Shown: positions 5,447 to 63,256 of the stretch, in pieces | Layout: every line of letters starts with the position of its first letter | Position numbering within the stretch: position 1 is the first letter of the stretch | Source: Porticoccaceae bacterium | GTDB taxonomy: Bacteria; Pseudomonadota; Gammaproteobacteria; Pseudomonadales; Porticoccaceae | Length of the DNA: 64,000 nt | Direction of reading: 5' to 3' | Assembly: GCA_029242085.1 (NCBI GenBank) | Contig: JAQWUP010000070.1 | Location: forward strand, 1-64,000 | Position numbers and translations under genes: made by a program | Notes under the pieces: generated by a model | Seen by the model: the letters and a program-made list of their open reading frames with translations, nothing else | The model's database searches: none | What the model was told of the DNA's origin: nothing

Positions 5447-7310
5447 GTTTTTTTAGCATCACCAGCAGCAGAGAGACTGCAGCGGGAGTAACGCCTGGTA
5501 CTCGCGAAGCGCGAGCCAAGGTCTGCGGCTGAGCATCAGTAAGTTTTTGTTTGATCTCATTAGATAGGCCACTGATTTTTTTGTAGTCAAAGTCTGCTGG
5601 GATAGCGGTGTTCTCATGGCGCTGTAATTTGTCGACCTCATCCTGCTGGCGATTGATATAACCGGCGTACTTGGCATCAATCTCAACCTGCTCTGCCACC
5701 TTCTCATCAATCGCAGTTTTAGCGGTGGGGTAAAGCGAGTTAATCATTTTATGGCTGAGTTCTGGGCGCTTAAGCAGCTCAAATAGCGAATACTCATGGG
5801 ACAGCTTATTTTCAATATGATCGGCTAGCTTGTGCGCCGCCTCTGTACCGGGCTGAATCCAGGTATCCTTTAGGCGTTGACGCTCTAATTCAATAGCTTC
5901 GCGCTTTTCACAAAAACTCTGCCAGCGGCTGTCATCGACCAGCCCCAGTTCACGGCCTTTTTCTGTGAGACGCAGGTCGGCATTATCTTCACGCAAGAGC
6001 AGACGATATTCTGCACGACTGGTAAACATGCGATAGGGCTCTGCAGTTCCCATACTAATAAGATCATCGACCAATACACCCATATAGGCGGTATCACGCC
6101 TCGGGCACCAGCTATCTTTGTCTTGAACCTGCAATGCCGCATTGGTGCCAGCCAACAAACCCTGAGCACCGGCCTCTTCATAACCTGTGGTGCCATTTAT
6201 TTGGCCAGCAAAAAACAAACCGCTTATAGATTTGGTTTCCAATGAGTACTGTAGGTCTTGGGGATTAAAGTAATCGTACTCAATCGCATAACCAGGGCGA
6301 GTGATGTGGGCATTTTCAAAGCCTTGGATAGAGCGCACCAAATTCAGCTGAACATCAAACGGTAGGCTTGTTGAAATACCATTGGGGTAGAGCTCATGGG
6401 TATCTAAACCCTCTGGCTCGACAAAAATTTGATGTTTATCTTTGTCAGCAAAACGCACGACTTTATCTTCAATCGAGGGGCAGTATCTGGGGCCAACTCC
6501 GTCGATGACACCGGTGTACATGGGTGAACGGTCCATACCACCATGAATAATTTCGTGAGTTGTGGTGTTTGTATAGGTGATCCAGCAACAGGTTTGCCGG
6601 GGATGATCTTCAAGGCGTCCCATGTACGACATTACCGGCTCAGGCTGGTCGCCCCACTGTTCTGGCAGATGAGTAAAATCAACACTGCGGGCATCGATTC
6701 TTGGCGGGGTGCCCGTTTTTAGGCGTTCAACCCTAAATGGTAATTCTCGCAACCGCTGCGCCAGTTTTTCTGCTGGCGGATCACCGGCGCGGCCGGCGGA
6801 ATGATTCTCCAACCCAATATGCACCTTTCCAGCCAAAAATGTTCCCGCAGTAACCACAACAGTCTTAGCGCTGAAACGCAGCCCCATCTCTGTAACCGCG
6901 CCTGTGACCCTATCGCCCTCAATAACAAGGTCATCGACCGCTTGCTGAAATATGGTTAGATTTGGTTGGTTTTCTAGAATATCGCGAATAGCCGCTCTGT
7001 AGCGAACTCGGTCTGCCTGAGCCCGAGTAGCTCTTACAGCAGGCCCTTTTCGAGCATTGAGCACGCGAAACTGTATACCACCGAGGTCTGTTGCCAGAGC
7101 CATTGCTCCACCCAGTGCATCAATCTCTTTCACTAAGTGACTTTTGCCGATACCGCCAATGGCAGGGTTACATGACATTTGTCCCAGGGTTTCAATGTTA
7201 TGTGTCAGCAGTAATGTTCTGCACCCCATGCGAGCAGAAGCCAGGCATGCCTCTGTGCCAGCATGGCCACCGCCAATCACGATCACATCAAAGTTATCCG
7301 GGTATTGCAT
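5436..7310 (-). CDS. mnmG: tRNA U34 carboxymethylaminomethyl synthase subunit MnmG (GidA)
   Basis: 624 residues, full length. MnmG is the FAD enzyme that works with MnmE to modify the wobble uridine of certain tRNAs. The Rossmann FAD motif [11 protein letters not shown] is at residues 11-21, with the GidA signatures [10 protein letters not shown] and MGVLVDDL further on. Its partner mnmE lies 3 kb away on the opposite strand rather than beside it. It is the last minus-strand gene before the orientation switch at about 7.3 kb. Confidence 0.97.
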
Positions 7311-7522
7311 AGGGCTACAGCATGTCTATTAAATTTCGGCTGCCCATTATACGGGTGTGTGGCTAAATAATAAGCAGTTTTGTGAGTGATTTTTTATTGT
7401 GGTTATCTTGGATCTCTTAAACTTATAAGTAAGTAATATTATCTTTATATAGTATGAATTAGGTTATTGTTACTGTTATTAGGGTGCTTTTTTTTTGTTA
7501 TTAAGTTAATAATAACATTATA

Positions 7523-7535
7523 AATCAATTACTTA
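7523..7535 (+). promoter_or_regulatory. IHF-like site
   Basis: AATCAATTACTTA fits the IHF consensus WATCAANNNNTTR at every fixed position. It lies inside the candidate origin, where IHF bends DNA in enteric oriC. Such short matches arise by chance in AT-rich DNA, so confidence is limited. Confidence 0.4.
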
Positions 7536-7672
7536 GACGTGGAATCTGTCTGTATAAACACCTTGTTAAAACTGTTTTAGTGCTGTGATTATTTATGTGT
7601 GCAAAGGTATTGATTTTTCTACTGAGTTAAGGAATTGAGAATAACGGATAAATCAGTGGGTAGTTATCTGAG

Positions 7673-7905: not shown

Positions 7906-8040
7906 ATGAAAAGAACATTTCAACCCAGCAACTTAAAGCGCAAACGCACCCACGGTTTTAGATCTCGTATGGCTACTCCTGGCGGTCGTGCTGTTCTTAA
8001 TCGCCGTCGTGCCAAAGGCCGCAAGCGTTTATCTGCGTAA
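7906..8040 (+). CDS. rpmH: 50S ribosomal protein L34
   Basis: 44 residues, opening [20 protein letters not shown] and ending [12 protein letters not shown]: an unmistakable L34. It is highly basic and sits in the large ribosomal subunit. It begins at the ATG at 7906 and ends with TAA at 8038-8040. It is followed after 14 bases by rnpA, the near-universal bacterial pairing, and both are probably driven by the promoter at 7833. Confidence 0.98.
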
Positions 8041-8054
8041 GGTTTTAGGGCCCC

Positions 8055-8429
8055 GTGCCCAGTCACACCTTCACTAAGCATCGACGCCTGTTAAAAGCCT
8101 CCGAATACAAGGAGGTTTTTGATCGCAATACTCTTAAAGTCGCTCATCCAAAACTCCTCCTTTTAGCACTGCCAAATAGCTCTGGTCAATCGAGACTGGG
8201 ATTGGTTATAGGTAAAAAAAATATCCCTACTGCTGTCGGTCGCAATCGTGTAAAGCGGGTTGTGCGGGAATCGTTCCGTCAATTTCACTTCTCAGTGCCT
8301 CTAGATATTGTTTTTTTGGCGCGAAAGGGGGCTGACAAGTTGTCGCCAGAGGAGATCAACTTGTTGTTGCACCAATCTTGGTGCAGACTGCTGCAGCGCT
8401 GTGAATCCCTGGGAGCTGACAATGCGTAA
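8055..8429 (+). CDS. rnpA: Ribonuclease P protein component
   Basis: 124 residues with a GTG start ([18 protein letters not shown]). RnpA is the small basic protein that binds the M1 RNA and helps it cleave 5' leaders from pre-tRNAs. The family signature is visible as [13 protein letters not shown], with GLVIGKKN before it. It lies between rpmH and yidD. Its stop overlaps the yidD start by eight bases, so the rpmH-rnpA-yidD-yidC unit is probably one transcript. Confidence 0.96.
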
Positions 8430-8685
8430 ACTGGCCATTGGTGTAATTAAGTTCTATCAATTTGCGCTCAGCCCTCTGCTGGGCAATAACTGTCGGTTTC
8501 ACCCAACTTGCTCATGCTACGCAGAAGAAGCATTTGAACGCTATGGGTTTTTCAAAGGGGGTTACCTTACAGTGCTAAGACTCGTAAAATGCCACCCTTT
8601 TCATCCAGGCGGTTACGATCCGGTCGGCGGACAAGCCGACACTGACGTAAATACCACCTGCAATAATAATCACACAGAGTTATAA
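8422..8685 (+). CDS. yidD: Membrane protein insertion efficiency factor YidD
   Basis: 87 residues from the ATG at 8422. The YidD (haemolytic domain) signature is clear: [20 protein letters not shown], then [13 protein letters not shown] and [13 protein letters not shown], with the conserved cysteines. It is an amphipathic inner-membrane-associated protein thought to aid YidC. A longer in-frame reading from 8308 exists but would overlap rnpA by 120 bases, so the short form is preferred. Confidence 0.95.
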
Positions 8686-8690
8686 ATAGA

Positions 8691-10370
8691 ATGGATTGGC
8701 TAAAAAGAACATTATTAGGTGGTATGGGTCTCATTGCCTGGATGCTGGTTATTGAGTGGACTCAGTTTCAAGATGATCGCAAACCAGAAATTGTTCAAGA
8801 GGGCAGCTATGCCATTGCCGCTGCAGACAGCCCGATTCCACAAGCTATTGCGCCAAATACTGGCGAAAATGAGTTACCGGAGTTATCCGGTGTGCAGCAG
8901 CTGCAAGCGCCAGAAATAACCGCGGCAGCTAACAGTCAGTTGGTGACGGTTCGTAATCAGGTGTTTGAAGTTGTGATAGATACCCTCGGTGGCGATATTA
9001 TCGAGGTCAACCTTCTGCAGCACCTTACTAAGATGGCAGAGGATGGAGGTAAGCCTTTTCAGTTACTCAACCGCACCAGCAAAAATATGTATATTGCGCA
9101 AAGTGGTTTAATTGGCCCAGATGGCACTGATACCCGTGATGGCAGACCGCGCTTTATCGCCGCGCAAAGTAAATATGACTTTAGCGATGGCGGCGAGTTG
9201 TTAAATGTAGACCTAACCTTTAACCAAAATGGTGTACGTTTAGTAAAGCGTTTTCAGTTCAGTGAGAGCGGTTATGATATTGGTGTTGAGTATCTGATTA
9301 ACAACTCAACCTCATTTGATTGGAACGCGACGTTCTACGGCCAAATTAAACGCGACTCTCGTTCGCCCTTGATTGAGGCGGCCGGCGTGCAACCCTATCT
9401 TGGCGCAGCTTTGCGAGAAGAAGAACAGAATTATGCCAAGTATGATTTTGGTGATATGGAAGATGAGTCTGTCACCGCCTCTGTCGAGGGCGGCTGGGTT
9501 GCAATGGTGCAGCACTACTTTGTCAGCGCTTGGATTCCGCCAACAAAAGACCAAAACAACTTTAGTCTTCGAAAGTTAGGTAGCAAAGATATTTACCTGA
9601 TGGGCTTTACAGGTCAACCCATCGCCGTGGCGGCTGGCGGCTTTGGTGGCTACAGCGCGCAGTTTTATGTCGGTCCCAAAGATCAGAATAAACTAGCTGA
9701 GTTGGCTGAGTATTTGGATCTAACCATTGATTATAGTTTTCTGTGGATGCTGGCTAAACCCATTTTCTTTGCTATGCAGGCTATTCACAACGTGGTGAAT
9801 AACTGGGGTTGGTCAATCATCCTGCTAACTCTGTTTATTAAATTACTACTTTACCCGCTGTCTGCAACTAGCCTTAAATCAATGGCCAAGATGCGCAATC
9901 TGCAGCCGGAAATGGCGCGTTTGAAAGAGCTGTATGGTGATGACCGCCAGAAGATGTCGCAAGAATTGATGGGGCTGTATAAAAAAGAGAAGGTCAATCC
10001 AGCTGGTGGTTGCTTTCCGATGCTTCTGCAAATGCCGGTTTTCTTATCGCTCTACTGGGTTTTGTTGGAATCTGTTGAAATCCGACATGCTCCCTGGGTG
10101 TTTTGGATTCAGGATCTATCAGCCAAAGACCCGTATTTTATACTGCCGCTGATAATGGGCGTCAGTATGTTGTTGATGCAGAAGCTACAGCCGATGCCAA
10201 CAGACCCAATGCAAGCAAGGGTTATGCAGATTATGCCTATTGCCTTTACCTTCTTCTTTATGATCTTTCCTGCTGGTTTGGTACTTTACTGGACAGTCAA
10301 TAACTTGCTGTCTATGGCACAGCAGTGGGTTGTCAACAAACAACTACAAAAGACAACAAAGAAAAAGTAG
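8691..10370 (+). CDS. yidC: Membrane protein insertase YidC
   Basis: 559 residues. Layout is the gammaproteobacterial one: an N-terminal membrane anchor (about residues 5-22), a large periplasmic beta domain to about residue 345, then the conserved five-helix insertase core starting near LWMLAKPIFFAMQ, with the cytoplasmic MRNLQPEMARLKELYGDD hairpin and GGCFPMLLQMPVFLSLYW. It inserts and folds inner-membrane proteins alone or with SecYEG, including AtpE, whose gene is nearby. It begins five bases after yidD and is followed by a terminator. Confidence 0.97.
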   Translation: MDWLKRTLLGGMGLIAWMLVIEWTQFQDDRKPEIVQEGSYAIAAADSPIPQAIAPNTGENELPELSGVQQLQAPEITAAANSQLVTVRNQVFEVVIDTLGGDIIEVNLLQHLTKMAEDGGKPFQLLNRTSKNMYIAQSGLIGPDGTDTRDGRPRFIAAQSKYDFSDGGELLNVDLTFNQNGVRLVKRFQFSESGYDIGVEYLINNSTSFDWNATFYGQIKRDSRSPLIEAAGVQPYLGAALREEEQNYAKYDFGDMEDESVTASVEGGWVAMVQHYFVSAWIPPTKDQNNFSLRKLGSKDIYLMGFTGQPIAVAAGGFGGYSAQFYVGPKDQNKLAELAEYLDLTIDYSFLWMLAKPIFFAMQAIHNVVNNWGWSIILLTLFIKLLLYPLSATSLKSMAKMRNLQPEMARLKELYGDDRQKMSQELMGLYKKEKVNPAGGCFPMLLQMPVFLSLYWVLLESVEIRHAPWVFWIQDLSAKDPYFILPLIMGVSMLLMQKLQPMPTDPMQARVMQIMPIAFTFFFMIFPAGLVLYWTVNNLLSMAQQWVVNKQLQKTTKKK

Positions 10371-51994: not shown

Positions 51995-52764
51995 TGGACC
52001 TCTTGGTTGCCGACATTGTTCAGCGCTTCTACATGTTGCTGTGGCCGATGATTCGCATCTCGGCATTTCTACTGTCGGCACCTTTTTTCTCGCTGCGCGC
52101 AGTAACCGTTAGAATCCGTGTGCTACTTGCTATCCTGCTGACATGGATGGTGTATCCATTGACCGATTGGCCGAGTGTGGATCCAATTTCGGCAGCAGGT
52201 CTTCGCGAGGTCTTTAGCCAGGTATTTATTGGCGTCCTGATGGGTTTAATACTGCAGGTGGTCAATTCTGCGCTGGTCGTTGGAGGTCAGGCAATCTCCG
52301 CTTCAATGGGTCTGGGTATGGCCAATATGGTTGACCCCAATATGGGCAATGTTCCGGTTATTTCTCAATTTCTTATTATTTGCTCGACGCTTATTTTCTT
52401 GGGGCTGGGCGGCCATGTGCTGGTCATTACCCTATTACTCGAAAGTTTTAATTTATTACCCATCGGTGAAGTTATCGATATGCAGCCTTTGATTGGGCTG
52501 GTTATCGAGTGGAGCGCGATGATCTTTTTGGGCGCAGTGTTGATGGCGCTGCCAATTATGGTGTCACTCTTATTTATTAATATTGGCCTCGGTGTCATCA
52601 CTCGAGCGGCACCGGCGCTAAATATTTTCGCCGTCGGTTTTCCGGCCATGATCTTGGCCGGTATTATTCTGTTATCTATGTCGATGACCAGTATTGGCTT
52701 TCGTATTCAGTGGCTGTGGCGTCAAGCTTTTGACACCCTGAGCCAGGCCGCGGGGATACGCTGA
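51994..52764 (+). CDS. fliR: Flagellar export gate protein FliR
   Basis: 256 residues with about six membrane helices. The FliR pattern is visible as FYMLLWPMIRISAFLLSAPF, LREVFSQVFIGVLMGLILQ and the GLGVITRAAPALNIFAVGFP block. It completes the FliPQR gate and overlaps flhB by one base, the usual coupling. Confidence 0.96.
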   Translation: MDLLVADIVQRFYMLLWPMIRISAFLLSAPFFSLRAVTVRIRVLLAILLTWMVYPLTDWPSVDPISAAGLREVFSQVFIGVLMGLILQVVNSALVVGGQAISASMGLGMANMVDPNMGNVPVISQFLIICSTLIFLGLGGHVLVITLLLESFNLLPIGEVIDMQPLIGLVIEWSAMIFLGAVLMALPIMVSLLFINIGLGVITRAAPALNIFAVGFPAMILAGIILLSMSMTSIGFRIQWLWRQAFDTLSQAAGIR

Positions 52765-53912
52765 TGGCTGAACAGGATACAACCGAAGAACGCACAGAGG
52801 AACCCACCGCCAAGCGTCTTGAAAAGGCGCAGGAAGACGGCCAGGTTGCGCGATCCCAGGAGCTGTCGGTTGCCTCCATGATGATTGGTGTGGCCTGCTT
52901 TTTGTATCTGTTTGGCGGCTATCTAATCACTCGGCTCAGTGAGGTTTTTGTTGCAGGCTTTACTTTTGATCGCAAAGATATTTTGTCCGACAACCTGTTG
53001 CCCGTAGCCTTCGGCGCTCATGCTTTAGACAGCATGCTGGTGGTATTACCGATCTTTATCCTCGCTGTATTGATTGCTTTGGGCGCAGCGGGCATTCTTG
53101 GCGGCTATATATTTTCCCTCAAATCGCTGGCGCCAAAAGCCAGTAAAATCAACCCTCTGTCCGGCTTTAAGCGTATGTTTGGTACCAAGGCGCTGGTTGA
53201 CCTGAGTAAAGCGCTAGCCAAGTTCAGCTTGGTCGGGGTGACATTGTATCTAGTGGTCAGTGAGAGCTTTAACGCACTTGTGTCACTCGGCTTCATGGAT
53301 CTTAGGCCCGCCATGGCTGAAGCAGGTGACATGATTGCGGCAGGCACAGTGCTGGTGACCCTTACCCTGATTGTCGCTGCCGCCATTGATGTGCCATACC
53401 AGATTTACGAATATAACAAGAAAATGAAGATGACTAAGCAAGAGGTCAAAGACGAATTTAAAGATACTGAGGGTCGACCTGAGGTCAAGGCGCAGATAAG
53501 GCGCAAGCAACGTGAAATGGCCATGGGGCAGATGATGGACGCGGTGGCAGATGCGGATGTTATTATCGTTAACCCGGAACATTTTGCTGTTGCTCTAAGC
53601 TATGATCCCTCGAGCAATGGCGCGCCAGTGGTGGTGGCCAAAGGCGCTGACTTTATGGCTCAGGGTATCCGTGAGCGGGCCACCGAACATGGTGTGCCAC
53701 TATTCTCTTCGCCGACTCTGGCCAGAGCTATTTATTTTACAACCGATATAAACCAAAGTGTCCCAGAATCCCTATACTATGCAGTAGCTCAGGTTATTGC
53801 CTATGTTTTTAGCCTCAATAGTCTGGGGCCAGGATCATCGGTGGCAGATAAGCCGCGGCCCGAAGTTCCCGCTGGAATGCGCTATAACACAGATGGTACC
53901 TTGGCTGAATAA
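52764..53912 (+). CDS. flhB: Flagellar export switch protein FlhB
   Basis: 382 residues: four membrane helices in the first 210 residues, then a cytoplasmic domain. The N-terminus EERTEEPTAKRLEKAQEDGQVARSQEL is the conserved FlhB opening. The autocleavage site, NPTH in the classic enzymes, is NPEH here (270-273, codons 53571-53582), while Asn and Pro, which carry the chemistry, are kept. FlhB switches export from hook to filament subunits with FliK. An unusual gene row begins 27 bases after it, where flhA is often found. Confidence 0.96.
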   Translation: MAEQDTTEERTEEPTAKRLEKAQEDGQVARSQELSVASMMIGVACFLYLFGGYLITRLSEVFVAGFTFDRKDILSDNLLPVAFGAHALDSMLVVLPIFILAVLIALGAAGILGGYIFSLKSLAPKASKINPLSGFKRMFGTKALVDLSKALAKFSLVGVTLYLVVSESFNALVSLGFMDLRPAMAEAGDMIAAGTVLVTLTLIVAAAIDVPYQIYEYNKKMKMTKQEVKDEFKDTEGRPEVKAQIRRKQREMAMGQMMDAVADADVIIVNPEHFAVALSYDPSSNGAPVVVAKGADFMAQGIRERATEHGVPLFSSPTLARAIYFTTDINQSVPESLYYAVAQVIAYVFSLNSLGPGSSVADKPRPEVPAGMRYNTDGTLAE

Positions 53913-53939: not shown

Positions 53940-55451
53940 ATGGTAGATAATAAAAAAGAACCTACATTCGAATTTCAAAACTGGTTTGACGGCGGTGATA
54001 TTTTCTATCGCAAAGTCGACAAACAGCGATTTCAATATGCGCTTGATGCAGTAGTTGATGACGAGCTGGGCCTTGCAGTTATAGGTACCAATGAAACGGT
54101 TCTCGATCATTACTGCCGCATGCTGGTTGCCCGCCTTCGCGATCTCAATATTTTTCAGGTAGAGGTGTTTTTACCGACCAATACCGACAGTTTACTCAAG
54201 CGCTTTAACGAAATGCTTGCCAGCATGAGTATGGAACGTGCGCGCCAGCCTGCCGACCCAGCGACTCCAGTAAAATTACTGGTGGTTAATGATGCCAAGG
54301 CGGTGGATGAAGAGCAGTGGTCATTGCTCGTGCGTCTATTGGCAGACTTCCCCGGCGTCAATGTGCGGCTGATTTTATTTCTCGATAAAACCGGCTGGCC
54401 CGGCTATGAAAAGACCCTCGGACTTTTTGGCCGGCGCCTGTATCGCTGGGCTGTGGAAACGCCAACTCTCGATGAAGCCGCTGAGCTGATGCTTGCCGCA
54501 AAAGAACATGGCTTTGAACGTGAGACTGAAACCCTATTGCTCCACGCCGGACTGGGTGCAGCTGTGCTAGGGGGTTATTCCGAGGAAGATCCAGATGAAT
54601 ACAATCCGTTTCCCCTGCCGACTGTCGATGAAAATGATTATATCGGCGAGGATTACAGCGACAGCAACCCGTTCACAGATACCGGCCTTGATTTTCTCGA
54701 CGACGAGGACAGAGGTTACGATGAGGAGGATAGTGAGCCGAAAACAAGCAAGTTGTGGCCGGTCGCAGCAATATTCTTGGTTAGCCTGGCAATTACCTGG
54801 GCGGTGATCTCTAAACTTAACCCGGATGCAGTAGAGCAGTACGAAGCCAGCGTCTCAGGGGTGTTAACTGAGTTGGCAGACACCTCAAAAAGTGCACAGA
54901 TTACCGAGCCTTTAAATTTACCGCTGGATGCGGGAGAGCCGCAGATCAACAGAACAGGCAGCCTCAGCGATAAGCCAGTTGTTGGCAACCAGATCGCCGA
55001 AGCTCAGGCTGTCGTAGCGGCTCTGCAAAAAGAAAAGCTGGCCGAACAGCAGGCGGCAAATGAAAAGCGGGCTGCGCGAGAACAAGCAGCGCAGGTCCGT
55101 AAGGCACAACAGGCTGCGGCCGCTAAAAAAGCGGCGGCGCAAAAGCGTGCTGAAGCCACTAGAAAAGCGAAGGTCTCTGGACCGGTTCAAAGTGCCAGAG
55201 CGACAGACTTCTTTGTTCAACATATTGTACTGAGCACCAGGGAGCAGGCGGGGCTGTATATCAAACGTTACTCTGGGTTGCGCAGTGCCACTGTTGTGCC
55301 TATTGCGACCGGCAACAATATTGCCTATGCGGTGTTATCAGGACCCTTCAGTACTCGCGATGGGGCCACCGCATTTACTCAAGGCCGAGGCTTACCTGCC
55401 GACTATTGGATTAGAGCCGCGCAACAACTCAAGACTGTTGTCCGCGACTAG
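53940..55451 (+). CDS. DamX-like SPOR-domain membrane protein with a degenerate ATPase-like part
   Basis: 503 residues. Residues 25-210 look like the AAA-type ATPase fold of DamX/GspA proteins, but the P-loop position reads AVIGTNETV (46-54) with no Gly-Lys-Thr/Ser, and the Walker B position is LLVVNDA. An acidic region follows, then one membrane helix (272-291, KLWPVAAIFLVSLAITWAVI), a Lys/Ala-rich coiled coil (about 355-415) and a C-terminal SPOR domain (about 423-500) expected to bind denuded peptidoglycan. The topology is cytoplasm-in, periplasm-out, like DamX. Co-directional placement after flhB suggests a flagellar or polar role. Confidence 0.75.
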   Translation: MVDNKKEPTFEFQNWFDGGDIFYRKVDKQRFQYALDAVVDDELGLAVIGTNETVLDHYCRMLVARLRDLNIFQVEVFLPTNTDSLLKRFNEMLASMSMERARQPADPATPVKLLVVNDAKAVDEEQWSLLVRLLADFPGVNVRLILFLDKTGWPGYEKTLGLFGRRLYRWAVETPTLDEAAELMLAAKEHGFERETETLLLHAGLGAAVLGGYSEEDPDEYNPFPLPTVDENDYIGEDYSDSNPFTDTGLDFLDDEDRGYDEEDSEPKTSKLWPVAAIFLVSLAITWAVISKLNPDAVEQYEASVSGVLTELADTSKSAQITEPLNLPLDAGEPQINRTGSLSDKPVVGNQIAEAQAVVAALQKEKLAEQQAANEKRAAREQAAQVRKAQQAAAAKKAAAQKRAEATRKAKVSGPVQSARATDFFVQHIVLSTREQAGLYIKRYSGLRSATVVPIATGNNIAYAVLSGPFSTRDGATAFTQGRGLPADYWIRAAQQLKTVVRD

Positions 55452-55476: not shown

Positions 55477-55800
55477 ATGTCAGAGTCAGAAGAAGAGCAG
55501 TTATTTAAGCTCGATGGTGCCAGTGGTGGCTTTAATGATATAAGTGAACATGCTGTTGTGGAGACTGATGACAGCGCTTGCAGTGACCTTAACCCTGCCG
55601 CTGAAGACAGCATGTCCAGCCCAGCTAAATTTCCCATTTTTACTGAGCAGGAGTCGACTGCTCTGACTGCGCTCGATGATGGCGCTATGAGTGCTGACAG
55701 AGCCCTGTTTGATGATCTGTTACGTCAGCGGATCGCTAAAGTTAACCGTGTTTCTGCCGATGTTTCTAGACAACTAGACGCGCTAAAAAAGCCATCCTAA
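55477..55800 (+). CDS. Small acidic hypothetical protein in the flagellar unit
   Basis: 107 residues, strongly acidic (opens MSESEEEQLFKLDGASGG), with no membrane segment. A C-terminal helical part (ALFDDLLRQRIAKVNRVSADVSRQLDALKK) may be a protein-binding helix pair. A GGGGGAA ribosome-binding site precedes the ATG. It lies 25 bases after the SPOR protein and 30 bases before the next gene, so the three are probably one transcript with flhB. I recognise no family. Confidence 0.65.
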   Translation: MSESEEEQLFKLDGASGGFNDISEHAVVETDDSACSDLNPAAEDSMSSPAKFPIFTEQESTALTALDDGAMSADRALFDDLLRQRIAKVNRVSADVSRQLDALKKPS

Positions 55801-55830: not shown

Positions 55831-56880
55831 ATGAGCAACCCCGAAGACGAAATTGAAAAAACTGAAGATGCTGAATCAGCAGATAATCAGGATCCAGAAC
55901 TGGATCAAGAGGCCAGTGAGCCCGCGGAGGGAGCACAGGACGGAGAGCCAGATGGAGAGTCAGATTCAGCACTGATTGCAGAGTCGATCGAGGCCTTCGA
56001 ACAGGGGTCTGAGGCAGAGGCTCAAGACGATACATTAGATTCAGGTGATCAAGAGCGCTTCGCTCAGGTACTTAAGAATGCCAAGGAGATTTCTGGCCGC
56101 CTCGAGGTTCTAGTGCCAGGTGTACTGGATACTGCAGATGCAACCAATAGTGCGGCAGATGTTAGCCGACGCGCGTCGTCGGCTCTGGAGAATGGGCTTG
56201 ATCATCTGCAAAAAAGAGTCAATGAATTAGTTGAAGCCAGCAGTAAAGGCGCAGCACTGTCGACGCGTATTTTGCTCGGTGCAGTTGTTTCGCTACTGAT
56301 TGCTGTCGGCCTTATTGGTTTTATGTCGGTTGAACTTTCCGCCCGTGTTAATCAGGTAGATGAGATGATGGTCGCTCTGAGCAAGCGCGTGGTGAAAATG
56401 AATTCGGCGCTGCAAACCTTCGAGCAGATTAATTTCTCAATCAATCAGTTGGCGACCAAGCAGGCACAATTTGCCAATAGTCAAATGCTACTCGCTGAAG
56501 CAGTAGATAAAGCAGAGAGGGCTACTGCCAATTTAAATAAGCAGGTTCCCGCTGCCACGGCTAAAAGTGTCAGCGCTGAAACTGGCAAGTTTGCGGTGCA
56601 GATTGATAAACTTAGTGGCGCACTTATCGCTCAGGGCAATAAGGTCGAGCTAGTGTCTGGATCAGTGAAAAAGCTGGAGGCCCAACTAAAATCATTTGAT
56701 GGGCGTATGGCTAGTGTTGCCAAATTAAATGCAGATGTTGAAGCCTTGATTACCTTAGAGCGTGAAAAGTATCTTGAGGCGTTACAGCGGCAGGCTGAGC
56801 TGCAAAAAATGGCCTTGGCGACGCAGCAACCAGAGGAAGAAATAGATCCCTCTATTGTGGTTTACCCCTTCGAGCGCTAA
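55831..56880 (+). CDS. Membrane protein with acidic N-terminus and long coiled coil
   Basis: 349 residues. A disordered acidic N-terminus (1-75, Glu/Asp-rich) and a helical segment lead to one membrane helix (about 146-166, RILLGAVVSLLIAVGLIGFM). Then come about 170 residues of predicted coiled coil (ARVNQVDEMMVALSKRVVKM and on), which would be periplasmic, ending VYPFER. No enzyme motif is visible. It could be a scaffold or a partner of the SPOR protein two genes upstream. Its end overlaps the end of the opposing gene by four bases. Confidence 0.7.
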   Translation: MSNPEDEIEKTEDAESADNQDPELDQEASEPAEGAQDGEPDGESDSALIAESIEAFEQGSEAEAQDDTLDSGDQERFAQVLKNAKEISGRLEVLVPGVLDTADATNSAADVSRRASSALENGLDHLQKRVNELVEASSKGAALSTRILLGAVVSLLIAVGLIGFMSVELSARVNQVDEMMVALSKRVVKMNSALQTFEQINFSINQLATKQAQFANSQMLLAEAVDKAERATANLNKQVPAATAKSVSAETGKFAVQIDKLSGALIAQGNKVELVSGSVKKLEAQLKSFDGRMASVAKLNADVEALITLEREKYLEALQRQAELQKMALATQQPEEEIDPSIVVYPFER

Positions 56881-57521
56881 CCGAGTAAGTCGTCCTCAGG
56901 CGTTGTGCCCTCGTCTATATTGGGTAGTTCGTCGAGGACATCTTCAGCACTATTATCATTGTGAGGCATCAGCTTCTCTGAAAAGGGCTGTTGTTGGTTG
57001 AGCTCGGTCCGTGAGTAGAGCAGCCCCGTCGCTTCATCAAGACTGACGCGCAGTCTAGCGCTCTCTTCGTCACCGGCATTAACGCTGGCATAGCCAGTAT
57101 GGTAAATAGTCGCTGCATGCTGAGGTGGAATCCAAGAGCTGATAGCGCCGCGCAAAGTACTGATAGTGGTTGGAACCTTCGGCTTCTTAGCTGGCGAGCC
57201 CTTTTTGCTGTCCTCGACACCCTCTGCGAAAAGTCCTTCAATATGTTTTCTCAATAGCTGTTCGTAGCGAGGCTTTAATGCGATTACATCATTGCTATTA
57301 AAGCCGCCGGGTGATTTTCCGGTCATCGCGTCCCACAATGTCTTGCCAGCCAGACCTAAAAAGGAATTATCGTCCGCGACTTCAGGGCTGCGTTCATTGA
57401 CAGCGCTATTGCTGTCAAGGGTGAGCCTCTCTAGGCGATTGATACGGTCAATCAAATAGATAATCAGAATAATCGTAGCGGCGGTGCCAAAGAAGACAGC
57501 AAGCAGGATAATTGAAGTCAT
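56877..57521 (-). CDS. Hypothetical single-pass membrane protein, last of the flhA-fliA unit
   Basis: 214 residues with an N-terminal membrane helix (about 3-25, SIILLAVFFGTAATIILIIYLI) and a soluble part containing FLGLAGKTLWDAMTGKSPGGF, then a helical region (ALKPRYEQLLRKHIEGLF) and an acidic tail. No family is recognised. It follows the 182-residue gene by 28 bases on the same strand as fliA, so it belongs to the flagellar transcript by position. In related bacteria chemotaxis genes often occupy this place. Confidence 0.65.
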   Translation of the reverse strand: MTSIILLAVFFGTAATIILIIYLIDRINRLERLTLDSNSAVNERSPEVADDNSFLGLAGKTLWDAMTGKSPGGFNSNDVIALKPRYEQLLRKHIEGLFAEGVEDSKKGSPAKKPKVPTTISTLRGAISSWIPPQHAATIYHTGYASVNAGDEESARLRVSLDEATGLLYSRTELNQQQPFSEKLMPHNDNSAEDVLDELPNIDEGTTPEDDLLG

Positions 57522-57549: not shown

Positions 57550-58098
57550 TTATTTTTCTTCCTGATTTTGATCATCATCCATGTCGTCATTCTCTTCTTC
57601 TGTAATGACGTTTTCTTCTGATGCCTGTAATTCGTCGCGCAAAAATTGCAATGTTATAAATGGATCTTCTAGGCCCAAATCGAAACTGACGCGGGCAGCG
57701 ACTTCCTGCACCAGTGTAATAGCTTTGACAGCATCAATTTGAACCGTTTGGTACATAGCACCTAAATTAAACACTTCCTGAGTAAACTCTTCCGGAACAT
57801 AGGTAAAAATTTCACCACTTACTGTTTTAGCTTTTTGAAAAAGAGCGGGCTTTGGCGGCGCTGGCTTATCCGCTCCTTTGGCCACAGCGGCCAGGCAGCT
57901 TTTTTGAAAAGATTCAGTTTTCTTGGCACCGTCAATAAACACTTTATCCAGGTGCGCACGACAGCGAATGCCAATGCGAATTTTATAGGTACGCCCGTCA
58001 CGGCTGTCATTAGAGAGGGACGCAGCTTTGATATATTCGTTTTTGGCCTGCAGTTGAGCAGTCTTCGCCGCTCTGCCTTTAAAGATAGATAAAACCAT
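57550..58098 (-). CDS. Hypothetical soluble protein directly after fliA
   Basis: 182 residues, no membrane helix. A basic N-terminal part (MVLSIFKGRAAKTAQLQAKN) includes two cysteines (IRCRA, KSCLAA), followed by an Ala/Pro-rich linker, a helical domain (AITLVQEVAARVSFDLGLED) and a very acidic C-terminus (EEENDDMDDDQNQEEK). It begins six bases after the fliA stop, so it is almost certainly co-transcribed with fliA. I recognise no family. Confidence 0.65.
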   Translation of the reverse strand: MVLSIFKGRAAKTAQLQAKNEYIKAASLSNDSRDGRTYKIRIGIRCRAHLDKVFIDGAKKTESFQKSCLAAVAKGADKPAPPKPALFQKAKTVSGEIFTYVPEEFTQEVFNLGAMYQTVQIDAVKAITLVQEVAARVSFDLGLEDPFITLQFLRDELQASEENVITEEENDDMDDDQNQEEK

Positions 58099-58104
58099 TA
58101 TTGC

Positions 58105-58821
58105 TCACTCATCTACATTTAAATTATTGCGCAATTTCTTTACGCTAGATGACAGAATCTGGCTCACCCGGGATTCACTGACATCCAGTACTGCGCCTAT
58201 CTCTTTTAAGTTCATCTCTTCTACATAGTAGAGTGAAATCACAGTGCGGTCACGTTCTGGCAAGTCATCAATAGACGCCATCAAAGATTCCATAAACTGC
58301 TCTTCTGCCATCTGAGCCTCTGGCTCATTATTTTCACTACTGGGCATATCGACAGTGTCAGGTAGCTGAGATTCTAACGAGACGGTCTGAAAACGGTGCG
58401 CATGGGTACGCTCTTTTTGGAAGCTCTCAACATCCTTACCCATAAATTCTGCCAATTCTGCCTGTGAGGCTTCGCGGCCCAATTCACTGCTCAGCGCCGC
58501 ACTGGCTTCATTGTGATCGCGTATATTAACGATCGCAGAGCGCGGTAAATAGGACAGCTTACGCACCTGATCGAGAATTGCGCCACGCACACGATTTTTG
58601 GCAAACACTTCAAATTCAACACCCTTGCTGGCATCAAAAGAGCTATTGGCCTCGATGAGACCAATCATGCCGACCTGAATTAATTCATCCAATTCCATAA
58701 AGTTAGGCAGTCGACCTTTGAGGTGCAGTGCGACCCGCTTTACCAGCCCAACATGGGCCAGCAGTGAGTCACTGGACTGAGCAGCATTTTGAATTTCTTC
58801 ATAGACTTTAAGGTCAGCCAT
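58105..58821 (-). CDS. fliA: Flagellar sigma factor FliA (sigma-28)
   Basis: 238 residues. Region 2 is visible as LLAHVGLVKRVALHLKGRLP, ELIQVGMIGLIEA, then region 3 (VFAKNRVRGAILDQVRK) and region 4 (LPERDRTVISLYYVEEMNLKEIGAVLDVSESRVSQI). It reads late flagellar promoters; three good candidates lie in this window (before pomA, fliS and flgP). It lies eight bases downstream of flhG. Confidence 0.97.
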   Translation of the reverse strand: MADLKVYEEIQNAAQSSDSLLAHVGLVKRVALHLKGRLPNFMELDELIQVGMIGLIEANSSFDASKGVEFEVFAKNRVRGAILDQVRKLSYLPRSAIVNIRDHNEASAALSSELGREASQAELAEFMGKDVESFQKERTHAHRFQTVSLESQLPDTVDMPSSENNEPEAQMAEEQFMESLMASIDDLPERDRTVISLYYVEEMNLKEIGAVLDVSESRVSQILSSSVKKLRNNLNVDE

Positions 58822-58829
58822 GGGTAGCC

Positions 58830-59657
58830 CTACGCGATGCTCTGTTGCTGCTGAGAAAGCCGTTCAACAAAGAACTGCAGGCCGCCATTCATCGGTATAT
58901 CTGATTCCAAGCCCATCACCACTTTGGCCAGTGCTTTAAAATCGCGGCTAGCGATACTTGAGGGCGCAAAAGAGGCCAATGGCTGTGACGCTTTTATCGC
59001 TCTAAGCACCATTTCATCCTGAGTAATCGAATGCAGATAGTCGACATGACTGCCGAGAAAGTTTTGAATAACCGAATTAATACTGCCGTACAGCCGCTCA
59101 CCTTCATTTTGTGAATTAACGCCATTGGGAATCAGGCCAATACGGTCTAGCTGATGCTCCTGAATCATCACTTTGATAGTGCCATAGGCATCTGCAATGG
59201 AGGAGGGCTCATTTTTTAGTACGATAAATCGATGCTGACAGGCACGCATAAAAGTCATAACGGTGTCAGACAGGCCCGCTGCAAGATCGACAATAAAGTA
59301 ATCTAAGTCGTCTTCAATATCTGAAAACGATTGAATAATACCTGCAGTTTCTGCCGTATTTAGTGATGCCATATGCTGCATGCCACTGGCACCAGGCACC
59401 AGTTTTACACCCATAGGGCCCTCAACAATAATTTCATCGAGAGTCTTCTCGCCGGACAGAACATGACTGAAGTTGTAAGGCGTTAGACAGCCCAGCGCCA
59501 ATTGAGCGTTGGCCAGACCTAAGTCTGCATCGAAAATCATCACTTTTTTACCCAGCGACGCAAGCATTACGGCAAGATTAACTGAAACAGTCGTTTTGCC
59601 GACACCGCCTTTACCGCTGGCGATACCGATGATTTGAGTGGGTCTATTGTCAAGCAT
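58830..59657 (-). CDS. flhG: Flagellar number regulator FlhG (FleN)
   Basis: 275 residues, MinD/ParA-type ATPase. The P-loop IASGKGGVGKTTVSVNLAVML is at about 12-32, with DADLGLANAQLALG following and IVDLAAGLSDTVM as the Walker B region. The C-terminal helix could anchor it to the membrane. FlhG antagonises FlhF and FleQ to limit flagella to one polar organelle. It lies downstream of flhF after a 186-base spacer. Confidence 0.95.
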   Translation of the reverse strand: MLDNRPTQIIGIASGKGGVGKTTVSVNLAVMLASLGKKVMIFDADLGLANAQLALGCLTPYNFSHVLSGEKTLDEIIVEGPMGVKLVPGASGMQHMASLNTAETAGIIQSFSDIEDDLDYFIVDLAAGLSDTVMTFMRACQHRFIVLKNEPSSIADAYGTIKVMIQEHQLDRIGLIPNGVNSQNEGERLYGSINSVIQNFLGSHVDYLHSITQDEMVLRAIKASQPLASFAPSSIASRDFKALAKVVMGLESDIPMNGGLQFFVERLSQQQQSIA

Positions 59658-59843: not shown

Positions 59844-61130
59844 TCAAACAAAACTGATCGGCAGGTGGCTGAGCGCATGCTGGGCCAGCGCATGGCCTGT
59901 CAGGGGGGCCATATCAATAATTGTTGGCTCTGCCGCACCGATTGAGATGGGCGTTTCGCAATTGAGCAGCGCATTAATGACAGCCCAGGGGTAAACACCG
60001 GTCTCAAGACGTGACAGCATCACCGAATTCCATATCAGTTCGGGTGATTTTAAATGACGCCTAACTGAACTCTCTGAGGCATCTGAGGCCAGTACCAGAT
60101 GCTTGTGGGCATCTGGGAGCAATCGGCTCAATGCCTTGATTTGATTTTCAACATCAACACCAGGGGTATCAATAATAATCAGTTTGCGAGAATCGAGTTC
60201 CTGCAGCAAGCTCTCGAGCATCTCCGGACTGCTTGCTCTGAATGTCTCGATGCCAGCCTGAGCGCCGATAAGCTGAGTTTGATTCCAGGCACCAAAACGG
60301 ACGTCGTTATAGCTCACCATAGCGACGGCCTGATCACCATAATTAAGTGCGGCCTGCTTGGCTAAACGACCAGCCATCAGTGATTTGCCGGTGCCAGAAC
60401 TCCCGGCAATTATGTGAATGCCCTGTAAGTCGTCCAACACATTGATATGTTTGATCCCCGCGCCAAGCAGATTGGTAATATCGGACAACGCGGCTGTCAT
60501 ATCAGTATTCTGATTAACCACATCTGTGACCAGCGCACGCAGACCAACAGGCATACCGGTTTCGTTAAAGGCTTCAATTAAGGGGCGCATCTCGTCGGCC
60601 ACCGAATGAGTGCCACTCCAGGCATCAAGTTGCTGTGACATCTTGAATTCTTTGCGCATAACCGCCAGTTCCTGACGCACCAGATCAACGATTTCACGAG
60701 CCTTAAGTTGCTCGCGATCCTCCGCTATACGGCTGACCTCTGCGGTTTGCATCCCGTCTTTTGCGACGCTTTGCTTAAGTTCATGCATAAAATTTTCGAT
60801 AAGACCGGAGTCTATATCAGAGTCCAACCCAAGAGTTTTATTTTGCACTGGGTCATGGGCAATCGCGGACGCTGTTTTAAACACCTCCGATTCCATTACC
60901 TGTTCGAAGTTGGGCATCTCGCCAAGTGCGACACGCGGCTCCTGAACGCAGGGCACCTGCATTTCATTGAGCGTCTTCTGAGTGTCATTTGGGATATCAA
61001 TCGCGACAATAATTTCAGTCTGATCCTTGGCTCGGTTATTGGATACCACCAGCGCATCCTCGCCATAGAGCTGGATCACTTTCTCCATTGCTCGGCGCGT
61101 GTCTTCTGCCAGTACTCTTTGTAGTTCCAT
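59844..61130 (-). CDS. flhF: Polar flagellum placement protein FlhF, divergent G domain
   Basis: 428 residues: a basic N-terminal domain (MELQRVLAEDTRRAMEKVIQLYGEDALVVSN is the family opening in outline), a helical N domain, and an SRP-type G domain from about 235. G1 is GSSGTGKS (243-250), the second motif NDVRFGAWNQTQL is recognisable, and G3 is DTPGV (321-325). The TKxD motif is replaced by SRLE (373-376), so guanine specificity may be weak or lost. It sits between flhA and flhG, the normal FlhF place, and is expected to recruit FliF to the pole. Confidence 0.88.
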   Translation of the reverse strand: MELQRVLAEDTRRAMEKVIQLYGEDALVVSNNRAKDQTEIIVAIDIPNDTQKTLNEMQVPCVQEPRVALGEMPNFEQVMESEVFKTASAIAHDPVQNKTLGLDSDIDSGLIENFMHELKQSVAKDGMQTAEVSRIAEDREQLKAREIVDLVRQELAVMRKEFKMSQQLDAWSGTHSVADEMRPLIEAFNETGMPVGLRALVTDVVNQNTDMTAALSDITNLLGAGIKHINVLDDLQGIHIIAGSSGTGKSLMAGRLAKQAALNYGDQAVAMVSYNDVRFGAWNQTQLIGAQAGIETFRASSPEMLESLLQELDSRKLIIIDTPGVDVENQIKALSRLLPDAHKHLVLASDASESSVRRHLKSPELIWNSVMLSRLETGVYPWAVINALLNCETPISIGAAEPTIIDMAPLTGHALAQHALSHLPISFV

Positions 61131-61147: not shown

Positions 61148-63256
61148 TTAATTGGTTTCTTCGACATCAACTGTCGCCACAACTTTAACCGCCTGATCAT
61201 CAGGGATCTCGCTGTAGGACAGCACAGTTAGGTCGCTCAATCGGTGTCTAATAATTTTTGCCAGCCAGGGGCGAATGCCAGGGGATACCACCAGCACTGC
61301 TGGGTGACCCTGATTTTCAACTGCTTCGGTATTTTCTGCGAGGGCTTTAAACAGGCCCTCCGCCAGTTTTGGTTCTATCACCAAGCCCTGAGTGCTGCTG
61401 CTCTGTTGCAAAACATTGTGCAGCACCTGCTCCAACGATGGATTCAGTGTGATAACTGGGAGGCTATCGTTGATATCGACCAAATTCTGCACAATCATGC
61501 GTCCCAGTCGTGGGCGCACTGCAGCGGTCAATTCATCGGCATCCTGAGTACGGCCACTCTCAGTGGATAGCACTTCAATAATGGTGCGCATATCACGTAC
61601 CGAGACAGACTCATCAAGAATGTTCTGCAGAACCTTAGTAATGGTTGCCAGGGGCAGTTTGCCCGGAACCAGATCCTCAACTAGTTTTGGTGAGCGATCA
61701 GCAACCTTGTCTAATAGCTGCTGTGTTTCATCGTGACTTAGCAGCTCAGAGGCGTTGCCGCGTAACAGGGTATTTAGATGCGTGGCAATTGCAGTGGCTG
61801 CATCCACTACGGTATAACCTAATGTGCGGGCATAGTCGCGCTGAGAGGGTTCAATCCAGATGGCATCCAAGCCAAATGCCGGCTCTTTAGTGGGCGTGCC
61901 TTCGAGGGTGCCATGGACATGACCTGGATTAATTGCCATCTCGCGGCCGACTTTGATCTCACCTTTACCGCGCACCACACCGTTCATAACAATATGGTAA
62001 ACATCGGGAGATAGATCCAGATTGTCGCGAATACGGATTGGCTGTATTAAAAAGCCCAGTTCGGCGGATAGTTTTTTACGCACACCTTTCACCCGTGGAA
62101 GAAGCTGTCCACCAGTTTCAGGGTTGACCAGAGGGATGAGGCCGTACCCAATATCCAAGCCGACTAGATCAACCTGATCTACATCGTCCCAGTTAAGTTC
62201 TTCTCTATTGGCATCTGCCTGAGCATTAGCGGCTGCCGCGATATTGTCGTTTTGCAAAGATTGGCGCTCAGAGTCTTTGGAGAGCTTGATGCCCAGCCCC
62301 ACAGCGGTGGCGCCAAGAGCAAGAAAGATCATATGTGGCATGCCCGGTATCATGCCCAGCAGAATCAAAATAGCCCCAGCTATAATCAGTGCCATAGGAT
62401 TGCTGAGTTGCGTCTTGGCCTGATCAGTCATGGATTCAGCGGTTGTTACTCGAGTAACAATAATGGCAGTCGCCAGTGACAGCAGTAGAGAGGGAATCTG
62501 TGCAACCAGGCCATCGCCAATAGTCAGTAGTACATAGATCCGCCCCGCTTCAGAGAAGGTCAGATCGTGCTGGCCTATACCGATCAGCAGGCCGCCGATA
62601 ATGTTAATAAGTAGGATCAATAGACCGGCAATGGCGTCGCCGCGAACAAATTTCGACGCACCGTCCATAGAGCCAAAAAAGTCTGATTCTTGGGAAATTT
62701 CCTCACGGCGTTTTTTAGCCGTCTCCTGATCGATCACCCCAGCATTTAAATCGGCATCAATAGCCATCTGTTTACCGGGCATGGCGTCCAGAGTAAATCG
62801 TGCAATCACCTCAGACACACGACCGGCGCCTTTGGTTACAACGATAAAGTTAATAATCATCAGGATGGCAAAGATAATAAAACCAACCATATAATTACCG
62901 GCGATGACAAATTCACCGAATGCCTCGATGACTTTACCCGCGGCATCTGGTCCCTCGTGGCCCTTAACCAGAACTAGACGAGTGGAGGCTACATTGAGCG
63001 CCAGCCGCAGCATGGTGGCAATCAACAGAATTGAGGGGAAAGCGGAGAAATCGAGGGGTTTAGAGCTATTGATGGCGATCATAATAATCACCAGGCCAAT
63101 TACAATATTAAAGGTGAACAAAAAATCCAGCAAAAAAGCGGGAAGAGGCAGAATCAACATCGAAATAATCAGTAAGACTAGGAACGGAATACCCAGTCCT
63201 GAGAGTTCGATTTTTGACAGGTCCTGTCGTATGTTCGACAGTGATGCAATGGCCAT
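61148..63256 (-). CDS. flhA: Flagellar export gate protein FlhA
   Basis: 702 residues: about eight membrane helices in the first 330 residues with the FHIPEP-like signature (RVSEVIARFTLDAMPGKQMAIDADLNAG), then a large cytoplasmic domain that docks export chaperones (LPRVKGVRKKLSAELGFLIQPIRIRDN; VRDMRTIIEVLSTESGRTQD). It begins the flhA-flhF-flhG-fliA row on the minus strand, 17 bases before flhF, behind a sigma-54 promoter. Confidence 0.97.
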   Translation of the reverse strand: MAIASLSNIRQDLSKIELSGLGIPFLVLLIISMLILPLPAFLLDFLFTFNIVIGLVIIMIAINSSKPLDFSAFPSILLIATMLRLALNVASTRLVLVKGHEGPDAAGKVIEAFGEFVIAGNYMVGFIIFAILMIINFIVVTKGAGRVSEVIARFTLDAMPGKQMAIDADLNAGVIDQETAKKRREEISQESDFFGSMDGASKFVRGDAIAGLLILLINIIGGLLIGIGQHDLTFSEAGRIYVLLTIGDGLVAQIPSLLLSLATAIIVTRVTTAESMTDQAKTQLSNPMALIIAGAILILLGMIPGMPHMIFLALGATAVGLGIKLSKDSERQSLQNDNIAAAANAQADANREELNWDDVDQVDLVGLDIGYGLIPLVNPETGGQLLPRVKGVRKKLSAELGFLIQPIRIRDNLDLSPDVYHIVMNGVVRGKGEIKVGREMAINPGHVHGTLEGTPTKEPAFGLDAIWIEPSQRDYARTLGYTVVDAATAIATHLNTLLRGNASELLSHDETQQLLDKVADRSPKLVEDLVPGKLPLATITKVLQNILDESVSVRDMRTIIEVLSTESGRTQDADELTAAVRPRLGRMIVQNLVDINDSLPVITLNPSLEQVLHNVLQQSSSTQGLVIEPKLAEGLFKALAENTEAVENQGHPAVLVVSPGIRPWLAKIIRHRLSDLTVLSYSEIPDDQAVKVVATVDVEETN

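Follow-up and report, generated by a model that had tools for sequence, protein, structure and literature searches.

Among the described systems with which this locus can be compared, Escherichia coli DamX acts at the septum and is not known to have an ATPase or AAA domain. The layout of an AAA domain, a transmembrane (TM) helix and a SPOR domain is therefore that of the DamX-type proteins of the order, eight of which we took as canonical (alignment A2). All eight have the three parts, seven lie beside aroB, and a P-loop-like motif is found in every one, ending in GK[ST] in seven (one of which reads APSGFGKT) and reading GxxxxGRS in the remaining one. The GxxxxGRS protein is the one from L032 (G051), a stretch without aroB. 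GspA and GspB (ExeA/ExeB) are inner-membrane, wall-binding helpers of another envelope machine; GspA combines a live ATPase with a wall-binding domain of its own, different from that of the protein studied here.

A 2019 structural paper assigns every known SPOR protein to cell division or morphogenesis (PMC6895207). RgsS of Sinorhizobium meliloti is presented as a SPOR protein that serves pole selection beyond division (PMC7822825); it is FtsN-like and concerns growth polarity instead of flagella. GspB/OutB is reported to anchor its secretin to the wall and the inner membrane (PMC9239104). For PilQ to bring PilO to the sites of future divisions, its AMIN domains, which bind the wall, are described as necessary, so the targeting of a machine by a wall-binding domain has a precedent (PMC5285504). 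There, as with the LysM domain of FimV, a domain that binds the septal wall brings a machine to the future poles; the domains are other than SPOR and the machine is the type IV pilus. Finally, FipA (DUF2802), with an N-terminal TM segment followed by a cytoplasmic part, is a partner of FlhF and a polar flagellum factor encoded beside the flagellar operon, in a report that calls the cooperation of FlhF with the polar landmark unclear (PMC11620751). FipA is unrelated to the protein studied here and has no wall-binding part.

The gene of interest lies in a stretch of 64,000 nucleotides (the window) from a Porticoccaceae bacterium. It encodes a DamX-like SPOR protein of 503 amino acids with an ATG start (53940..55451, plus strand). 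The gene flhB (52764..53912, plus strand; Pfam PF01312, E 8.4e-123) ends 27 bp before it, and the next open reading frame begins 25 bp after it. Upstream on the same strand run fliN, fliP, fliQ, fliR and flhB, the names of fliP, fliQ and fliR being assigned from sequence and gene order. Downstream on the plus strand follow g2 (55477..55800), a small soluble protein with no assigned function and the next gene of the module, and g3 (55831..56880), with an acidic N-terminal part, one TM segment and a coiled-coil-like C-terminal part. The opposite strand then carries g4 (56877..57521), with an N-terminal TM segment, a presumed cytoplasmic part and no known domain; g5 (57550..58098), a soluble protein without any family match in domain-family and PDB sequence searches; fliA (58105..58821; sigma-28 type, named from its sigma-70 domains and position); flhG (58830..59657; MinD/ParA-like, named from its domain and position); flhF (59844..61130; SRP54-type GTPase domain, PF00448, E 1.3e-10); and flhA (61148..63256; PF00771, E 1.1e-260). 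The module member kept most widely is g3, and g2 was not seen in the three genomes of family f40. We also observe that g5 is conserved between g4 and fliA in families f1 and f15. The six named relatives of the DamX-like protein are SAR92, HTCC2207, Porticoccaceae or Pseudomonadales records, which puts the genome in or near the SAR92/HTCC2207 group. The SAR92 strain H921, obtained from coastal seawater (PMC10746254), has a copy with 71% identity to that of the window (G026/L023). Since the gene adjoins flhB and is near fliA and flhG, its product might be a regulator of flagellar expression or export that senses the state of the wall, the pseudo-AAA part acting on FliA or FlhG, or on FlhB. We regard this as very improbable: fliA and flhG lie on the opposite strand, and in f40 neither of them follows in the part that was read.

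Searches with the single sequence gave no AAA match in Pfam, NCBIfam or the PDB and a weak SPOR match, so that profiles and structures were needed. An AlphaFold2 model computed from 16 aligned homologues has block-mean pLDDT values of 67–90, mostly 78–90, over residues 21–210. Foldseek returned 59 matches to this N-terminal domain (about residues 12–212; 53973..54575, plus strand) at E ≤ 0.001, headed by 1fnn (Cdc6; E 1.4e-5); the best 50 of the 59 are all AAA+ by title. VIA-align gave Z values of about 10–12, with a STAND NTPase first and then dynein AAA modules, ORC/Cdc6 and RFC. On the predicted model, both comparisons thus place the domain in the AAA+ fold. When N-domains alone were compared by hhalign, the domain matched the AAA domain of the canonical DamX proteins with a probability of 92 (E 6.5e-7, 161 columns), against 0.2 in controls with swapped domains, so the likeness to DamX AAA is above chance, though distant; full-length alignments had yielded the SPOR match only.

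The P-loop is gone from this domain. The first-pass annotation had seen no Gly-Lys-Ser/Thr there, and this holds for the family: [GA]xxxxGK[ST] occurs in the first 260 residues of none of 32 members (the window protein and 31 homologues), and the Walker A Lys and Ser/Thr expected of an AAA+ ATPase are absent from all 32. Near the GxxGxGKT of canonical DamX, hhalign aligns IGTNETVLDHY (residues 48–58; 54081..54113, plus strand). The remnant of the Walker-B strand, LLVVNDA in alignment A1 (residues 113–119; 54276..54296, plus strand), has no Glu following the Asp. Read from sequence, these features support the view that the domain is a degenerate ATPase that has lost its P-loop.

The C-terminal domain (residues 414–503; 55179..55448, plus strand) is recognized as SPOR by Pfam, by its model, and by Foldseek and VIA-align. 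In the window protein the Pfam score is 15.1 bits for the whole protein and 20.7 bits for the domain, against a cut-off of 21; 18 of 23 family members match SPOR (PF05036) at E ≤ 0.01. Modelled alone from 23 sequences, the domain reaches a mean pLDDT of 94.7. For this model Foldseek ranks the DamX SPOR domain from E. coli first (2lfv; E 8.7e-3, TMq 0.68, rmsd 3.4), and the best PDB sequence-profile match is to DamX as well (E 0.014). VIA-align gives a tie among 6ozd (Z 8.5), the SPOR domain of RlpA (8.4) and that of DamX (8.3), and outside 6ozd and the SPOR entries the highest Z is 4.9; structure comparison matches the model to 2lfv, 6i05, 6i09 and 1x60. The domain thus belongs to SPOR by fold and by family profile. 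Q351, S354 and W416 of DamX are reported to matter for its septal localization (PMC6895207). If the alignment ends (model 7–88, 2lfv 344–427) are taken as gapless, Q427 and W490 lie opposite Q351 and W416, and the sequence profile likewise pairs Q427 with the DamX Gln. The strand-1 Gln, which in SPOR domains contacts the glycan, is kept in all 23 aligned proteins, and the W490 position is W in 21 of them and F or Y in the other two; in G151 the motifs read VQL instead of VQH and LGPF instead of SGPF. This alignment (A6) holds 23 of 32 sequences tried: L006, L010, L011, L076, L077, L079, L088 and L090 were left out because the motif search did not place the domain start or misplaced it, and L003 because it nearly duplicates L004. 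An Amidase_3 gene is present in all 12 genomes searched, so the denuded-glycan ligand can be made.

Between the two domains lies a single TM helix (about residues 272–294; 54753..54821, plus strand). The hydropathy segment starts at residue 272 and coincides with a helix of the model at 273–293, and each of the 16 aligned proteins, the window protein included, has one hydrophobic segment. A single TM helix ahead of a C-terminal SPOR domain is the DamX-type arrangement; by homology the protein would sit in the membrane with its N-terminus in the cytoplasm. The presumed periplasmic linker (54822..55178, plus strand; alignment A1) is rich in Lys and Ala here. The first-pass annotation had counted a Lys/Ala linker as part of a DamX layout: the layout of AAA+ fold, one TM helix, linker and SPOR domain is borne out, with both domains homologous to canonical DamX, and so was the structural similarity to DamX on which the annotation had made its case depend, in the N-terminal part and in SPOR alike. 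The Lys/Ala composition stands for the window protein and its near relatives and fails as a trait of the family.

The protein thus shares with the canonical DamX-type proteins of the order the domain order, the AAA fold and the SPOR domain, both domains being matched by profile. It differs from them in lacking the P-loop and the Glu after the Walker-B Asp, in lying at flhB and not at aroB, in a very low identity and in occurring in flagellar clusters only. We do not file it as DamX because the P-loop and the position at aroB, both tested, are missing; it may still work like a DamX-type wall tether. Neither is it of the GspA/ExeA type, which unites a functional ATPase with a wall-binding domain of its own: the P-loop is missing and the C-terminal domain is SPOR. 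From E. coli DamX it differs by having an AAA domain at all.

What became of the aroB-linked damX bears on whether the protein is a surviving DamX that still works in division, its place among flagellar genes serving to adjust division to motility. No damX stands behind aroB in any of 27 f1 genomes (nine of nine from the window's genus, the window's own included, and 18 more); what follows aroB there is a glutamate synthase or uroporphyrinogen decarboxylase gene, identified by eye in all 27 and confirmed by Pfam in the four scanned, and in every case it extends past the end of the sequence fetched. Among the matches listed in the genus, which include many AAA matches of about 100 bits, no two-domain canonical DamX was seen. 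In f15 and f40, where it could be judged, one domain is left. All eight f15 genomes have an aroB-linked protein of 259–272 amino acids with a Pfam AAA_22 match (seven above the cut-off), one TM segment near the C-terminal end (in G151 a second, weaker hydrophobic stretch as well) and no SPOR match; two of three f40 genomes have a protein of 149–156 amino acids behind aroB with a SPOR match and no AAA match, the stretch behind aroB in the third (G213) being too short for judging. This loss, and the homology of both domains to DamX, favour a retained division role. Against it, the P-loop of the N-domain is lost, and neither gene is found in G003, G004, G017, G018 and G033 (no flhB match, aroB locus in view) nor in genera g23 and g24 (f1, conventional flagella), which have neither an aroB-linked damX nor the flagellar DamX-like gene. 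Division in f1 therefore needs no DamX, and we consider a retained division role improbable. As g23 and g24 have neither gene, DamX can also be lost where the flagellar protein is missing. The same f1 non-carriers, which also lack the aroB-linked damX, weaken the idea that the gene simply replaces a lost DamX.

As side observations, the f15 half-DamX proteins, which have the AAA and TM parts, lie at L094:2438-3253 and in L114, L116, L117, L119, L120, L121 and L122, with an intact P-loop in seven of eight (APSQSGKS in G151); the SPOR-only halves of f40 lie at L110:1814-2260 and L115:491-958.

Homologues of the DamX-like gene occur in 17 of 56 relatives and in 22 of 390 genomes of the order, which makes 34 genomes with five common to both sets; in a class sample of 369 genomes the only match was the window's own. 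The carriers belong to three families of one order (genera g1 and g26 in f1, g15 in f15 and g44 in f40). Directly 3' of flhB is where the gene lies in 32 of the 34, as the first-pass annotation had described it for the window; the other two are cut by contig ends (G002 retains only the C-terminal end of the gene, at a contig edge, and the contig of G335 starts just before the gene). Nowhere in the 34 genomes was the gene seen away from flhB. The linkage of homologues to flagellar genes, whose absence that annotation had named as fatal to its reading, is thus confirmed by the survey of flagellar clusters. Among 35 genomes of the genus, 17 have a true flhB match; 15 of these carry the gene, and the other two are G013, cut by a contig end inside flhB, and G007, which is without the gene. 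None of the 16 genus genomes without any flhB-family match has it; in G002 and G031 a short FlhB C-terminal-like match is all there is, and G002 holds also the piece of the gene. With G013, G002 and G031 left out, Fisher's test on [[15,1],[0,16]] gives p 5.7e-8, a value of small weight, since the gene is part of the flagellar operon and its co-occurrence with flhB is thereby partly trivial. At 17 conventional flhB loci (13 + 4), flhA or unrelated genes stand behind flhB, and the profiles of the DamX-like protein, g2 and g3 found nothing there; a long flhB match outside f1 and G048 was present in 14 genomes, of which 13 were opened (G052 was left out), and second long flhB matches of G041, G042 and G055 were set aside. 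The mixed bin G032 has flhB on four contigs, all but one of which carry the gene; among its copies one is very divergent and cut at a contig end, and the reading frame of another stops at 225 amino acids. Copies that are broken or contain ambiguous bases, in G387 and in L025 (a named record that is not among the 34), were left out of the alignments.

Of the 43 rows of an FlhB tree, 24 are carrier rows (from 23 of the 34 genomes), and all of these group in a single branch, which has 26 rows and support 100/99. G007 and contig 150 of G032, which make up the rest of the branch, have near-identical FlhB, and in both flhB is followed by g3, the DamX-like gene being missing; the gene is therefore dispensable for a flagellum of this type. 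The tree requires two changes, either one gain and one loss or two gains. Genera g23 and g24, of the same family, lie outside the branch and have the conventional order flhB-flhA-flhF-flhG-fliA. The pattern could have arisen by transfer of the cluster from one family to another or from old parallel copies. Separately, we note that g3 (55831-56880) is present even in the two systems without the DamX-like gene and, being kept there, may have the more central part in the module.

Comparison of the window with three other species shows how tightly the N-domain is held: its identity is 83–91%, that of FlhB 82–88%. The SPOR domain, at 61–80%, evolves faster than the N-domain, and the TM helix with linker falls to 31–63%; g2 has 38–56% and g4 53–61% in the window comparisons. 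Over five pairs dN/dS is 0.006–0.041 for the N-domain and 0.038–0.078 for FlhB, figures to be read with dS saturated in the three window pairs and varying strongly between genes in the L024-L026 pair. Because it is conserved as tightly as FlhB, the dead ATPase domain is a working part, and a domain that has lost its nucleotide motif and is so tightly held is best read as a binding surface. These data also weigh on the proposal that the gene is a passenger without a flagellar role. The two near-identical related systems that do without it speak for that proposal; its position is nevertheless kept across three families, and purifying selection on it is as strong as on FlhB, which leaves a passenger hardly credible.

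The reading that we follow, and to which we give about even chances, is that of a DamX-derived inner-membrane scaffold that ties flagellar proteins to the denuded wall, for siting or for installing the flagellum. It would cross the membrane once and belong to a single flagellar lineage. On the cytoplasmic side, the AAA+ fold without P-loop would be the surface on which a flagellar partner that itself evolves slowly docks; candidates for this partner are the products of g2, g3 and g4, FlhF/FlhG, and the side of the export gate or C-ring. In the periplasm, the SPOR domain would grip denuded glycan made by amidases, which would be concentrated at the septum and the young poles, and through this bridge a flagellum under assembly might be held to the wall at the pole. 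We infer, for this protein, that it binds glycan, that it has such a partner and that it acts in placing the flagellum at the pole or in installing it in the wall; the first-pass annotation, too, had suggested that it may bind glycan-denuded peptidoglycan at the new pole and help to place or insert the flagellum. The whole suggests that a flagellum may be tied to wall material left by cell division.

Part of this evidence would also suit a factor for wall insertion or anchoring, somewhat like GspA/GspB, that holds or opens the peptidoglycan round the rod, or fastens the motor to the wall, at whatever site FlhF gives the flagellum, and that could also bring wall synthesis there. The protein is an inner-membrane one with a wall-binding type of C-terminal domain, the adjoining g3 encodes a one-TM protein with a coiled-coil-like part, and anchoring of this kind is reported for GspB/OutB; DamX, moreover, is reported to raise the glycosyltransferase activity of PBP1B about twofold, with PBP1A unaffected (PMC7642682). 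Domain-family and PDB sequence searches, on the other hand, matched no enzyme or wall-cutting domain, SPOR domains are described as favouring the septal wall (PMC6895207), and a GspA-like helper would work with a live ATPase, which the motif denies to this protein. We hold an insertion or anchoring factor without a siting role to be unlikely, though it ranks next after the scaffold and before a division role.

A more specific form of the scaffold reading concerns the choice of pole. A lineage with flagella of the polar type and without FipA might use a SPOR protein of divisome origin, its AAA+ domain dead, as a wall-reading landmark, so that the denuded glycan of the last septum marks the building site and links division with siting; we put this forward tentatively and think it rather doubtful. 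If true, this would be the first SPOR protein dedicated to a motility machine. A search by title and the start of the abstract, mostly outside subscription journals, returned no paper on SPOR proteins of flagella. With such a protein established in the flagellar operon of three families, the rule of division and morphogenesis would have to be widened, and there would be a way for a polar flagellum to locate new wall at the pole.

Searches for known polar factors set bounds to such a landmark. FimV-core matches were found in 20 of 21 genomes, above the cut-off in 18; G141 had none, and G399 and G007 only matches below the cut-off. The protein is not the sole polar cue, because FimV-core is above the cut-off in 11 of the 12 carriers searched; replacement of the FimV landmark was dropped in view of the 20 genomes with matches. 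DUF2802 was found in none of 17 f1, f15 and f40 genomes searched, five of them non-carriers, and in all four outgroup genomes. No match for either family came from the 14 control genomes, so these four are the only positive control for DUF2802. A loss of FipA specific to carriers was dropped as well, DUF2802 being also missing in the non-carriers G141 and G275, which have conventional clusters, G018 and G004, which have no flhB match, and G007. As a lead only, g4 (56877-57521) has a FipA-like topology in a lineage where DUF2802 was not found.

Some minor observations concern the wider cluster. In L025 the DamX-like gene and g3 are both broken across several frames (6001-7557 and 7921-8912), through either error in the assembly or decay. 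Beyond flhA, the stretch L038:2461-5782 has LPP20, FlgT_C and FliK-type matches, all below the Pfam cut-offs, and the genes there perhaps correspond to a Vibrio-like H-ring. A short FlhB C-terminal-like gene also lies beyond flhA, at G000 C11:66793-67017.
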